IMG/VR virus record: IMGVR_UViG_3300012930_000009
Coordinates: 1-41,678 of that record
Length of the DNA: 41,678 nucleotides
Strand: one strand, 5' to 3'
From: a virus
The position numbers were made by a program, and so were the translations under genes. The notes beneath the pieces were generated by a model that saw only the letters and a program-made list of their open reading frames with translations, ran no database searches and was not told the origin of the DNA. How positions within the stretch are numbered: the first letter of the stretch is position 1; every line of letters starts with the position of its first letter. Below, one piece after another: positions 2,452-41,678 of this stretch.

Positions 2452-3537
2452 TCAAATCCGGTACCAGTTCGTACCAGCCAAGTGATAGATGTAGGCAAAC
2501 GGTAGTGTTGCGCCCATCGTCGAAGGGGCTCCGCTGATTGTCTGGCCGCTATTGGCACTGACTGTCAGCGCCGTGATGGTTTGCGATGAGGAAAACCGGA
2601 TGATCTGTCCGTCGATGGGTGTTGCCGGCATCGTGATCGTGCCAGTGGCAAGCGTACCTGCGGGATTCAATATCAATGCTGAGATGTTGTCCGCGACCGT
2701 GATAGAAAAACCGGTGGTGGGCACCTGAACGGATTTGGATTGATCGGCAACCGCCTTGACGGTGATAAAATTCCCGTTCGCATCGAACTCGCCGCGATAA
2801 GTCGCGGCGCTGGAAAACCCTAATCTATTAGTACCTGGAACATAAATACCGCGCGTGGGAATCGTGGCACTGGTGACATCCACCCGTCCCAAAGTTGCGG
2901 TACCTGAGGTGGTTATATTCCCACTGAAAGTGAAAGTGCCAGAACCAAGCCAGCTCCCTGTTGGATTATTGGTCGCGTTGCCTAGTGCAATGTTAGTAAT
3001 CGCGGTAGTCGATCCGCGGGTAATCGCAATAGCATTGACGCCTGCACCATCAGCATCTGTACGCGTGCGAATCGTGAGCACGCCACCGTTAAGATCAACA
3101 TCCCAAAGCTTTAGATCAGACCCTTGATCCGACTCGCTCAACCTGATACGCGGCTCAGCAAGCGAGAAGGTATGCACACCAGTCCACGTCGGAACAATAG
3201 TGACATCCAATGCAGGCGCGCCGTCAGAGCGCATCGCCGTTGCGGCAGAACCATTGATGGCCGTCAAACCAAGAACTTGCGCGCCCGGATTCGCAACCGC
3301 GATGCCAGCTGCATCAAGCGTTGTCCCGGTCAATGTAAGATTCGTGCCGAGAGTGATTTCCTCCATCACACCCGTCGCTGCGGTGCCGCGACCAATAAGC
3401 TTATTGGTCGCCATCGAGGTCGTGATGGTGCGATTAGCGCTTAGATCACCGCCCCCGGCCAGCGGTGCAGTTGTGCTGATCGTGCGTGTATCGGCGACGG
3501 TACCGCTAGTGTTAGCTGCCCCGACTGACTTGAGCAT
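2452..3537 (-). CDS. Tail fibre protein
   Basis: 361 residues from ATG 3537-3535, one base beyond the TAA of the upstream small virion gene. An open frame continues upstream to 3735 but there only shadows that gene. Near the N-terminus TTAPLAGGGDLSANRTI is the typical phage fibre motif (G-G-G-D-L-S-x-N-R-T). Thr/Ala/Gly-rich low-charge segments follow (GNITTSGTATLGRV). The C-terminus (GQIIRFSSSQTITALTVSANSG, then a Y-x-Y ending) resembles collar domains of fibre tips. It is expected to be a trimeric receptor-binding or fibre component. It belongs to a run of fibre-like genes that sit together at the downstream end of the tail module. Confidence 0.8.
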   Translation of the reverse strand: MLKSVGAANTSGTVADTRTISTTAPLAGGGDLSANRTITTSMATNKLIGRGTAATGVMEEITLGTNLTLTGTTLDAAGIAVANPGAQVLGLTAINGSAATAMRSDGAPALDVTIVPTWTGVHTFSLAEPRIRLSESDQGSDLKLWDVDLNGGVLTIRTRTDADGAGVNAIAITRGSTTAITNIALGNATNNPTGSWLGSGTFTFSGNITTSGTATLGRVDVTSATIPTRGIYVPGTNRLGFSSAATYRGEFDANGNFITVKAVADQSKSVQVPTTGFSITVADNISALILNPAGTLATGTITMPATPIDGQIIRFSSSQTITALTVSANSGQTISGAPSTMGATLPFAYIYHLAGTNWYRI

Positions 3538-9876: not shown

Positions 9877-10152
9877 TCAGCCCCGCACAAGGCACTGACG
9901 GATGACATCGAGGGTTTCTGGATCAGCGAGGCCTGATTGCTCAACGATCCTGACCATGCGGATTGAATCAACCGGCTCGGTCAGCTTGGCCCGCTGCTTC
10001 GCCTCATCACGCAAGTTCTCAACCTCGTTGACGAGGTGATAGACGAGTTCTCTGAGCGTCGGATCCTCGTTCTTGCCGCCGCCAACATTGATCCAGCCCG
10101 CGCCCATTCGCATGAGGCCGACGTGCCGCGTAATCAGCTCAACAATGTCCAT
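9877..10152 (-). CDS. Hypothetical protein (91 aa), early operon
   Basis: 91 residues from ATG 10152, chosen because AGGAGG lies just upstream (AGGAGGGCAGATG). The frame stays open to 10215. MDIVELITRHVGLMRMGAG is followed by helices with LVYHLVNEVENLRDEAKQR, a short coiled-coil-like segment. No motif allows a functional call. It overlaps the end of the preceding small ORF by 14 bases. Confidence 0.65.
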   Translation of the reverse strand: MDIVELITRHVGLMRMGAGWINVGGGKNEDPTLRELVYHLVNEVENLRDEAKQRAKLTEPVDSIRMVRIVEQSGLADPETLDVIRQCLVRG

Positions 10153-10498
10153 CTGCCCTCCTGAAAGGCTCCAGGAGCCCGCGTGGTTGCACCCGCATGT
10201 GGGGATCATTGTCATCGCGAAGTCGTCTCAGCGAGGCTCCTGCGAGCAGCAGCGGGCATTGCGCGCGCATTCCTTGCGCGATGGCGATGAGGTCTGCGTT
10301 GTTGGGATCAACTGGCTGATGAGGAACGCTCAACGACAGCATTGTCACTGCGTCAACTGGTTGGCTCACCTGTGAAACGGTTCCACGTGGAACTGCATTA
10401 GTGACGGCAAGTGACGGCACTTCCGTATATATTTCAATGCGCACGCGTATTGAAGAAGAACAGGGATTGCCGTCACTTGCCGTCACTCTGTCAATCAT
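10139..10498 (-). CDS. Hypothetical protein overlapping the origin-like repeats
   Basis: 119 residues from ATG 10498, overlapping the helicase stop and preceded by GGAGGA four bases upstream, so initiation is well supported. The frame then reads through the 20-bp inverted repeat (RVTASDGN and VPSLAVTNAV are its translation) and the parS-like palindrome (VPRGT). It looks less protein-like than its neighbours. The 3' half (PNNADLIAIAQGMRAQCPLL) could be a small helical domain. It may be coding, or the DNA signals may be the main content. Confidence 0.45.
   Translation of the reverse strand: MIDRVTASDGNPCSSSIRVRIEIYTEVPSLAVTNAVPRGTVSQVSQPVDAVTMLSLSVPHQPVDPNNADLIAIAQGMRAQCPLLLAGASLRRLRDDNDPHMRVQPRGLLEPFRRADGHC
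10380..10393. promoter_or_regulatory. parS-like 14-bp palindrome
   Basis: GTTCCACGTGGAAC is a perfect palindrome. It equals the core of the chromosomal ParB-binding site parS (tGTTnCACGTGnAACa), in the CC..GG form I associate with Pseudomonas. The outer bases here are G and T rather than T and A. I found no other parS-like site in the window and no parA or parB gene. It could instead be an operator for an unknown dimeric protein. Confidence 0.55.
10400..10487. repeat. 20-bp perfect inverted repeat of tandem decamers (candidate origin)
   Basis: The left arm 10400-10419 is two direct copies of AGTGACGGCA. The right arm 10468-10487 is two copies of the complement TGCCGTCACT. The arms match at all 20 positions and enclose a 48-bp spacer with the AT-rich run TATATATTT. 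Iteron-like sites around an AT-rich core, at the 3' end of the primase/helicase gene, are typical of an initiator-bound origin. A cruciform or RNA hairpin is the alternative. Confidence 0.65.
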
Positions 10499-11927
10499 TG
10501 TTCCTCCAGTCCGGCATGTCAGTTCCCCGAAGTTCGACGCCTAAATACAGCCCACCCTGGTTCGTTCGCTTCCAATCGAAGCCGCGGCGTTTCATCTCAT
10601 GTGGCAAATCCTTTGAGGCCATCGAACGCTCTCCGATGTCCTTCGCGAAGTCCTGATAGGCCCGATAAAGCATTCCGGCCTTCACTTGCGCAAGCTTCCG
10701 GCGCTCGCACTTCTCATCGAGGAATTTGCCCAGCGTGTCGGAGTCCGATCGGTACTCGACGGACGCCTCGGTGATGATGGCCGGCGCCTTCAATCCGCTG
10801 CTTTGCCATTCCAAACAGCCCCGCACAGCCCACGCTAAAATGCCCGGCAGTTCTTCGCGCAGCTTCTCGAGGAGTCGCGGGTCTTGCTCATCTCCGGCGA
10901 AGAGGCGCGCGAACGGAAGTAGTCGCAGCCGGCGCCAGATGCCATCGTCCGTGCCGCTGATCGCTGGTTTGTGGTTGCCGCGCACCAGGAGCTTGTGCGT
11001 TGGCTTGAAATCGAAAAACTCGGCCCGCAGGAACCGTGCGTTGATCGAGTCCGAACCGGTCAGGTCTTTGAGCTTCGCCTCATCGAAGGCGCTGCCCTGG
11101 CTCGTCTCGTTCATGAGCGCGACACGGGCGCCGCGCAGACGTGCGACATCATTCGGGATGCCCCCGCCGTGCTTCTTCGACATCAGCATCTCAGGGGATA
11201 CGACGATGGCGTATTCGCCCATCAGATCCGCGATCAGCTCGCAGAAGACCGACTTGCCGTTGGCGCCCAGGCCGAAAAGGAAGTGCAGCACCTGCTCAAA
11301 CGTGCAGCCGGTGAGCAGATACCCAACCATTCGGCGCAGGTAATCAGCGAGTTCGGCATTCTCGATCGTGACTTGCGTGAGGAACGCATCCCAGCGCGGG
11401 CACAGGGCATCCGCCGCATAGGTGATGGGGATCACGCGGGTGATGAGATCCGAGCGCCTGTGCTCCCGCAGCTCGCCTGAGCGCAGATCAAGCGTGCCGT
11501 TCGCGACATTCAGAAGCCACGGGTCCGCATCGAACTGCGTCAGCTGAATGGGAATACCAGGCTCTGAGCGCGCACACCAGATCATGGCCTCAACCGCGCG
11601 CCTGGACTGCGACTGGCGCGCGTGCTTGTACATCTCGGTCTTGTCGGCCGCGCCCTTCACCTCATCGTAGATCGACAGGGCGACGTGCTTGGCAAGTGTC
11701 TGCACACGCACCGAGCCGTGATCGTGCGGCCAGCGCCTGCCATCCCAGACAAGCCAGCCATGCTCGGCGGTGTAATGCAGATCCTGGCCGAACTTCGCCG
11801 CCAATCGGCGCCCGTTCGCGATGTCGGAATCCGTGATCTGCGCGCCCCTGGCACGCCCGGAGCGCTTATCCATCGCGCGCTGAAGGCTCGCGACTTTATC
11901 GAAGTCGTCGTTATCCACGAATCGCAT
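10491..11927 (-). CDS. Phage primase/helicase, D5-like SF3 ATPase
   Basis: 478 residues from ATG 11927, overlapping the CHC2 gene by 17 bases. Residues about 40-210 contain the D5_N-type region (DADPWLLNVANGTLDLRSG, then YLRRMVGYLLTGC). Walker A is GLGANGKS at 219-226. A Walker-B-like ARVALMNET follows near 268, and the SF3/D5 sensor segment LVRGNHKP with GIWRRLRLLPF lies near 315-340. The C-terminal about 80 residues form a winged-helix-like tail. It is the replicative helicase of the phage, acting with the separately encoded zinc module. It lies directly upstream of the origin-like repeats. Confidence 0.9.
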   Translation of the reverse strand: MRFVDNDDFDKVASLQRAMDKRSGRARGAQITDSDIANGRRLAAKFGQDLHYTAEHGWLVWDGRRWPHDHGSVRVQTLAKHVALSIYDEVKGAADKTEMYKHARQSQSRRAVEAMIWCARSEPGIPIQLTQFDADPWLLNVANGTLDLRSGELREHRRSDLITRVIPITYAADALCPRWDAFLTQVTIENAELADYLRRMVGYLLTGCTFEQVLHFLFGLGANGKSVFCELIADLMGEYAIVVSPEMLMSKKHGGGIPNDVARLRGARVALMNETSQGSAFDEAKLKDLTGSDSINARFLRAEFFDFKPTHKLLVRGNHKPAISGTDDGIWRRLRLLPFARLFAGDEQDPRLLEKLREELPGILAWAVRGCLEWQSSGLKAPAIITEASVEYRSDSDTLGKFLDEKCERRKLAQVKAGMLYRAYQDFAKDIGERSMASKDLPHEMKRRGFDWKRTNQGGLYLGVELRGTDMPDWRNND

Positions 11928-12330
11928 CGCGCGCTCGCCCGATGCGCTCAGCGGCCAATATAAGCCGCTGGATTTGCTCGTCCTCGAGGCATAGCTGATC
12001 CTGGGATTGCGCGGCAATGTGCGCGGCGACCTGAACCTCATGAGAGATCAGAAGCAACAGATCTGCGGCCGGCATGTAAGTTTTGAGCGGCCGATACACG
12101 GCGCCAGGCTCGCGCTTCTCGAATAGTGCCGCAAACTCAAGACCGCAGGCATCTAGTATCGCGCCTGGCTCGCAGCCGCCAAAGCAGTGAATGAGCACGC
12201 GCCCGCCGTCCGCCTCTTTGATGGATAGTGAAGGTGAGCCGTCATCGTGCGCCGGGCAGCGCGCGATCCAGCGGCCAGGGCCTGTGTGCCTCACCTTCTC
12301 CAGGCGCTCAAGTAACAGTTCGGCGCTCAA
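11911..12330 (-). CDS. CHC2 zinc-binding primase module
   Basis: 139 residues. It starts at TTG 12330 with AAGGTG eight bases upstream. Zinc ligands fit C25, H28, C49 and C53 in CPAH and HCFGGC, the DnaG/P4-type CHC2 finger. The 'GSPSLSI' strand between them is family-typical. There is no TOPRIM catalytic domain; the C-terminal half is helical. DNA-template recognition is thus encoded apart from the helicase, and the primase active site would have to lie in the partner or in a host enzyme. A four-codon frame (ATG CGT ACT TGA) overlaps its start. Confidence 0.85.
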   Translation of the reverse strand: MSAELLLERLEKVRHTGPGRWIARCPAHDDGSPSLSIKEADGGRVLIHCFGGCEPGAILDACGLEFAALFEKREPGAVYRPLKTYMPAADLLLLISHEVQVAAHIAAQSQDQLCLEDEQIQRLILAAERIGRARDAIRG

Positions 12331-12387: not shown

Positions 12388-12651
12388 CTACGGGCCCCTG
12401 ATGTTTGCGGTGCGGAACCCGGGAGCGTGACTTTGGGGGACCCGCTCGCGCGGGTAGATGTCGGGGCGCAGATCATAGCGCGTCACCTGTCCCATGGTGG
12501 CCGCCTCCACCGGCAGCACCCGCTCGGCGGGCAGGCGCCCGCGGGCAATCCACGAGGACACGGTGCCCTGGGAGCCGAGCCCGAGCAGTCTTGCCATTGC
12601 GGTTTGTCCGCCGACCAGTTCACAGGCTTTCAATATCGCTTTTCGGCTCAT
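12388..12651 (-). CDS. YdaS/Cro-like HTH repressor
   Basis: 87 residues from ATG 12651 (an upstream in-frame ATG at 12669 is possible). MSRKAILKACELVGGQTAMARLLG is the YdaS/Cro-type helix-turn-helix start, followed by SQGTVSSWIARGRLPAERVLPVE, the recognition helix and the conserved R-x-P-A-E-R element. It is the first gene of the leftward early operon and faces the rightward operon, so it most likely controls both. A -10-like TTAAAT lies six bases before the ATG, which would give a leaderless mRNA as for lambda cI. No second repressor is present. Confidence 0.85.
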   Translation of the reverse strand: MSRKAILKACELVGGQTAMARLLGLGSQGTVSSWIARGRLPAERVLPVEAATMGQVTRYDLRPDIYPRERVPQSHAPGFRTANIRGP

Positions 12652-12656
12652 TCCCC

Positions 12657-12686
12657 ATTTAACGCACATTCCGTTCTGCGCGTCAA
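12657..12686 (-). promoter_or_regulatory. Candidate repressor promoter (leftward)
   Basis: On the minus strand TTGACG (12686-12681), an 18-base spacer, then TTAAAT (12662-12657). Transcription would begin close to the ATG at 12651. The half-site GTCAACA/TGTTGAC occurs here (12682-12688) and, inverted, at the opposing promoter (12721-12727). Confidence 0.5.
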
Positions 12687-12722
12687 CAGCACGATACGCG
12701 AAAATAATTAATGCAAAAAGTG

Positions 12723-12751
12723 TTGACACAGTAACGGATCGTGCATTAAAG
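12723..12751 (+). promoter_or_regulatory. Candidate rightward early promoter with operator dyads
   Basis: TTGACA (12723-12728), a 17-base spacer and TTAAAG (12746-12751) lead into a short leader with AGGAG and ATG 12778. Dyads overlap it: GTGCA-N6-TGCAC at 12741-12756, and TTAATGCA (12708-12715) inverted to TGCATTAA (12742-12749). These are plausible binding sites of the divergent repressor. Confidence 0.6.
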
Positions 12752-12777
12752 TGCACTGGTTGAAAACAGGAGCAGAC

Positions 12778-41373: not shown

Positions 41374-41678
41374 TACTGTTGCCTCACTAAAATACGCATG
41401 GTGCGGTCATACGTGCGGCCGCCGGTGGTCGTAATCCGATTAATAATTCGATAGATTCTGCCGCAGCTTCCGCCCGAGACAAAGATGGCGGTCTTGTTGC
41501 CAACCAACATATCACTCACTGCTGTGAGGCCATCGGGGAGGCTCATCACGCTGGTCGCAATGACATCGGCGCCGAGATTGGCTGACCAGTCGAAGGCAAA
41601 GTCAGTCGTAGAATCCGGATCTTTCTCGAAGTCAATGTCAGCGTTGCCGCCGCAATAGGTGCCCAGCGTGCCGTAATC
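41373..41678 (-). CDS. Fiber-tail adaptor-like protein, C-terminal part (crosses junction)
   Basis: This is the continuation of the gene starting at 144. Its stop is TAA at 41375-41373. It includes the 123-base repeated end, so unique sequence is 41373-41555 (60 codons plus stop). Visible segments are SVMSLPDGLTAVSDMLVGNK, IFVSGGSCGRIYRIINRITT and the ending TMRILVRQQ. Joining both ends gives 108 residues with no frame break, which proves the circular closure is in register. Confidence 0.75.
   Translation of the reverse strand, partial: DYGTLGTYCGGNADIDFEKDPDSTTDFAFDWSANLGADVIATSVMSLPDGLTAVSDMLVGNKTAIFVSGGSCGRIYRIINRITTTGGRTYDRTMRILVRQQ
41556..41678. repeat. Right copy of 123-bp direct terminal repeat
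   Basis: Exact copy of bases 1-123. It should be counted once when the genome is closed. Confidence 0.97.

Follow-up and report, generated by a model that had tools for sequence, protein, structure and literature searches.

A candidate stem-loop replication origin with an adjoining parS-like palindrome in a phage genome without recognised ParB, and orphan parS sites in other viral contigs

The primase-helicase locus and its non-coding gap

The IMG/VR virus contig IMGVR_UViG_3300012930_000009 (41,678 bp, G+C 58%), analysed over its whole length and called the window below, contains a non-coding gap of 338 bp (10153-10490) that lies 3' of the stop codon of a primase-helicase gene (10491) and extends to the start of the next gene at 10152. 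Two elements stand in this gap, a perfect 14-nt palindrome identical to the core of chromosomal parS and a long inverted repeat. They are separated by six bases (10394-10399), where an earlier reading made from the letters only, hereafter the sequence-only reading, had counted seven. We infer that the gap is the replication-origin region of the phage, in which the inverted repeat would be the working element and the palindrome a fortuitous parS look-alike, a reading to which we give a probability of about 0.5. The features of the locus are as follows.

9877..10152, minus strand: next gene downstream, 91 aa, with ATG at 10152 and a strong Shine-Dalgarno sequence, AGGAGG; sets the edge of the gap
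10372..10378, no strand: extra parS-type half-site GTGAAAC, 1 bp from the palindrome (noted post hoc; the adjacency could be chance)
10380..10393, no strand: palindrome of 14 nt without mismatch, GTTCCACGTGGAAC, whose sequence is that of the parS core, in the 16-mer context GGTTCCACGTGGAACT (sequence search)
10400..10487, no strand: inverted repeat, candidate stem-loop replication origin (layout shared after the helicase in relatives; pRN1/BIP-1 precedent)
10491..12041 (start may be 11927), minus strand: P4/D5-type primase-helicase (matches PHROG 6088 and related families of DNA primases)
11911..12330, minus strand: reading frame for the CHC2 zinc ribbon of the primase, lying upstream of and overlapping the primase-helicase

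The long open reading frames (ORFs) crossing the gap had negative codon scores, and a coding role for the ORF at 10139-10498 was ruled out by its negative score and by the lack of any family. The sequence-only reading had placed the palindrome beside the replication helicase gene, which is correct, the palindrome lying in the gap 3' of the helicase stop.

With its direct terminal repeat of 123 bp (1-123 and 41556-41678), the contig probably represents a whole genome that was assembled as a circle. Pfam and PHROG scans of the predicted genes identified a P22-like portal, a Phage_capsid_3 head protein, the large terminase and a tail spike, together with the D5/P4-type primase-helicase, a Sak4-like AAA protein and SSB. 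These scans found no ParA, ParB or integrase among the predicted genes, and a six-frame search of the window found no HTH_ParB domain, in agreement with the sequence-only reading, which had seen none of the three. No Rfam family or tRNA was found in the window, and DNA searches for near-identical and for distant matches among phage records gave no useful relative.

The inverted repeat as a candidate origin

The arms of the inverted repeat are perfect and 20 bp long (10400-10419 and 10468-10487), each consisting of two tandem copies of AGTGACGGCA, and they enclose a 48-nt core of AT/GCGC character. The single-strand fold of 10370-10495 was much better than that of shuffled sequences (z-score -7.3). 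The 20-mer of the arm had no exact copy in IMG/VR. A scan with the single helicase sequence found no relatives; the helicase relatives considered here come from an alignment-based scan, and the closest of them (L219 and L220, 60% identity; L221, 56%) all have an inverted repeat of like layout and similar core directly after the helicase stop. Their iterons differ from those of the window, being TGTAGGC in L219 and GTGACGSC-like in L220 and L221. The 330 bp that follow the helicase were surveyed in 78 helicase relatives; 37 of these had an inverted repeat with a score of at least 14, and the control windows from the same loci and the shuffled sequences had none. Many phages (L219-L298) have a double-iteron inverted repeat around a GCGC/TATATGG-type core no further than about 330 bp after a P4/D5 primase-helicase; across these loci the iteron sequence changes by lineage and the layout is constant.

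Plasmid pRN1 depends for its replication on a stem-loop of 100 nt located 3' of its primase-helicase gene; the stem-loop of pRN plasmids is kept in structure and not in sequence, a similar stem-loop was seen in phage BIP-1, and replication proteins of this kind were proposed to assemble on it (PMC4234260). Because its layout is homologous with that of the relatives and it resembles the pRN1/BIP-1 stem-loop, the repeat at 10400-10487 is likely the replication origin of the phage. The primase-helicase encoded alongside would then bind and open this stem-loop. Such an identification puts an elaborate repeat into a known class and provides many relatives for a comparative study of the iterons.

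The parS-like palindrome in relatives, bacteria and viral contigs

The palindrome GTTCCACGTGGAAC is exact and occurs once in the window, as had been claimed. Its chance expectation as a named 14-mer is 41,678/4^14 = 0.00016, close to the earlier figure of about 0.00015. The window has 6 sites with a perfect palindrome of at least 14 nt, where about 2.5 are expected, and since such palindromes are not rare, the only unusual feature of the palindrome is its identity with the parS core, a match chosen after the fact. The longest palindrome of the window, a perfect 20-nt sequence GACCAATAAGCTTATTGGTC, lies at 3390-3409. The site has the core of chromosomal-type parS (GTTCCACGTGGAAC/GTTYCACGTGRAAC), and its outer bases are G..T instead of the T..A of the full 16-mer, a departure that the sequence-only reading had recognised.

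The palindrome might be an orphan host-type parS. The phage would then persist extrachromosomally, or manage its DNA in the infected cell, with host ParB drawn to a single site beside its own origin, much as chromosomes use the parS sites close to oriC. In this tentative scheme ParB would load at the palindrome, slide to flanking DNA and connect the origin with ParA, and perhaps SMC, of the host, so that the phage would link its origin to host ParB while encoding no partition gene itself. The non-coding position adjoining the candidate origin is consistent with this, and the lack of an integrase, together with a Cro-like regulator, would fit a plasmid-like prophage. The bacterial matches bear on it in both directions. 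In P. aeruginosa PAO1, only TGTTCCACGTGGAACM was occupied by ParB in vivo among parS-like sequences, and variants with two mismatches were unbound (PMC5098823); a hierarchy of ParB binding to P. aeruginosa parS variants has been described in vitro (PMC4368675). In gammaproteobacterial parS sites it is uncommon for both outer bases to be changed. In the 6.6 Mb of P. aeruginosa PA7 the 14-mer occurs four times and no more, at 3.6, 4.2, 12.5 and 13.9 kb. oriC lies at the record start, from which no copy is more than 14 kb away; from their number and position the four copies are probably parS1-4. The site at 13.9 kb is AGTTCCACGTGGAACC, the reverse complement of the window 16-mer. Because this exact 16-mer stands among the oriC-proximal sites of PA7, the T..A pair appears not to be absolute for parS, and the outer bases of the window site lower, and do not remove, the chance of a working parS.

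The same 16-mer also lies in the region of a recF gene in Granulosicoccus, where another 14-mer stands 219 bp away, and at intergenic sites of two Psychrobacter species. Among the matches listed from bacterial genomes, 21% lay in ORF-poor DNA against 7.6% of random positions. Most Pseudomonas matches of the G..T 16-mer were rejected as parS, as they fall in one conserved gene and are a coding coincidence. The extended 22-mer GTGAAACGGTTCCACGTGGAAC had no copy in bacterial genomes. Helicase relatives in Gammaproteobacteria reached at best 45% identity, and a host guess on that basis failed.

Conservation also speaks against a parS function. The check proposed in the sequence-only reading, for the same palindrome at the same place in related phages, was run and turned out negative in the available relatives: it was absent beside the origin repeat in L219-L221, no parS-like 16-mer with at most one mismatch was present in 616 kb around 80 helicase relatives, and the exact 14-mer was missing from 40 portal relatives. 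Palindromes of any kind beside the origin repeat of relatives were not enriched (3 against 3.75 expected), which ruled out that a palindrome regularly accompanies this repeat. A structural relative with 39% portal identity (G072) carries a perfect parS, TGTTCCACGTGAAACA, at L212:1500-1515, and no HTH_ParB was found there.

Three half-sites of the form GTGRAAC/GTTYCAC stand in a row within 22 bp. Viral parS sites do not typically have such additional half-sites, which counts against an orphan parS; the arrangement would suit an operator for a dimeric phage or host regulator, or an accessory origin palindrome, that merely resembles parS. The palindrome lies upstream of the gene at 9877-10152 and adjoins the candidate origin, and a palindrome between genes is often an operator. 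The scans recognised a single repressor-like gene, as follows.

12388..12651, minus strand: YdaS/Cro-type DNA-binding regulator (family scans)

We nevertheless consider an operator or accessory palindrome unlikely, as the genome has no second copy and none in the divergent regulator region (12598-12777), no promoter-like pair stands between the palindrome and the gene at 9877-10152, and the lack of palindrome enrichment beside the origin repeat of relatives also opposes it. A phage-repressor operator shared with the divergent regulator region was ruled out, as that region has no half-sites.

The counts given next for parS sequences of viral contigs are samples in collection order, among the matches listed. 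Of 121 viral 14-mers, 60 had the outer bases T..A, 43 had one of the two and 18 had neither, against random expectations of 7.6, 45 and 68, respectively; the other self-complementary outer pairs numbered 2, 2 and 4 against 60 for T..A, which shows the excess to be specific to that pair. None of the 18 sites with neither base lay in ORF-poor DNA (under 120 aa), compared with 45% of the T..A sites and 17% of random positions, so the class to which the window site belongs looks like background. The window site stands out in this class because it is non-coding, although a single chance case in a class of about twenty would look the same.

The perfect 16-mer behaves differently. A control palindrome of the same composition, TGTTCCAGCTGGAACA, had 54 matches in the whole collection against at least 120 for the parS 16-mer, and in a second scan 61% of the parS 16-mers lay in ORF-poor DNA compared with 6% of the control. 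At least two parS 16-mers occurred in eleven contigs and five in one contig, and the control showed no such case. The five lie within about 6 kb of one viral contig (L535:4324-10457). The strongly over-represented 16-mer TGTTCCACGTGGAACA was found at T..A-class loci among L004-L121 and L491-L552, mostly outside ORFs and often next to head or terminase genes; the adjoining genes include head protein, head protease and terminase families. In one phage lineage, TGTTCCACGTGGAACA and TGTTTCACGTGAAACA form a pair 7-8 bp apart before a terminase-like gene, at these loci:

L104:310-349, paired parS
L501:3372-3411, paired parS
L538:4504-4543, paired parS
L539:5089-5128, paired parS
L529:14-52, paired parS

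L501 and L529 are about 76% identical there, with both 16-mers unchanged and a different spacer. The gene after the pair reads like a large terminase, from its sequence and not from a family search in L501. No HTH_ParB was found in the 134 records searched, the window and 133 others, and the positive controls were detected; many of these records are fragments, so ParB may be encoded elsewhere in the genomes, and individual records may contain prophage or host contamination. Judged by these counts, the recurrence of perfect parS 16-mers without ParB in viral contigs is real.

Weighing of the readings and comparison with known systems

Several observations count against a fortuitous palindrome. 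It lies in non-coding DNA, with the candidate origin 6 bp away and another parS half-site at a distance of 1 bp, the identical 16-mer stands at 13.9 kb in PA7, and many other phages without ParB carry perfect parS sites. In addition, conservation could be judged only at a distance, because no helicase relative closer than 60% identity was found. When the background rate, the flank class, the non-coding position and the adjacency to origin and half-site (the last two post hoc) are taken together, we put a working parS at about one in three, which is a judgement and not a computed posterior. The palindrome is somewhat more likely a look-alike: it would be private to this phage, probably a chance product in non-coding DNA, and not used for partition, and at most a host ParB of tolerant specificity could bind it.

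The sequence-only suggestion that the phage borrows host ParB is partly supported. As an idea it is plausible and suits a real viral class, given the recurrent orphan viral parS sites and the precedent of SGI1 (PMC10954446); it fits the window site poorly, which is single-copy and not conserved, with both outer bases off and a flank class at background level. It may be, although we hold this as doubtful, that phages without ParA and ParB recurrently dock their DNA on the host segregation machinery through orphan host-type parS sites, of which the window would provide one case, imperfect and linked to an origin, in a podovirus that has no integrase and is possibly plasmid-like. In the open-licence literature we found no phage reported to borrow chromosomal ParB, and priority is not established. 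The orphan phage parS class merits follow-up more than the window site, as over-represented, non-genic, conserved and paired 16-mers make the docking idea directly testable in better systems.

Compared with the pRN1/BIP-1 origin, the inverted repeat of the window is similar in being a long stem-loop directly 3' of a primase-helicase gene and in its constant structure and diverging sequence among relatives, but its arms are paired tandem 10-bp iterons and its core has the GCGC/TATAT motif common to the relatives. The palindrome shares its inner 14 bases with Pseudomonas-type parS (TGTTCCACGTGGAACM; P. aeruginosa parS1-4) and the exact 16-mer, on the other strand, with the fourth oriC-proximal site of PA7, which also adjoins a replication origin. 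Unlike chromosomal parS, the putative phage site is single-copy, has both outer bases off consensus and lies in a genome without ParA/ParB. The closest functional parallel is SGI1: its parS-like sites are bound by IncC ParB, and they make SGI1 more stable and the plasmid less so (PMC10954446). Both are mobile elements without partition genes of their own whose site resembles the centromere of another replicon; however, SGI1 uses a plasmid ParB, with binding and stabilisation shown, whereas the putative partner of the phage would be a chromosomal ParB.
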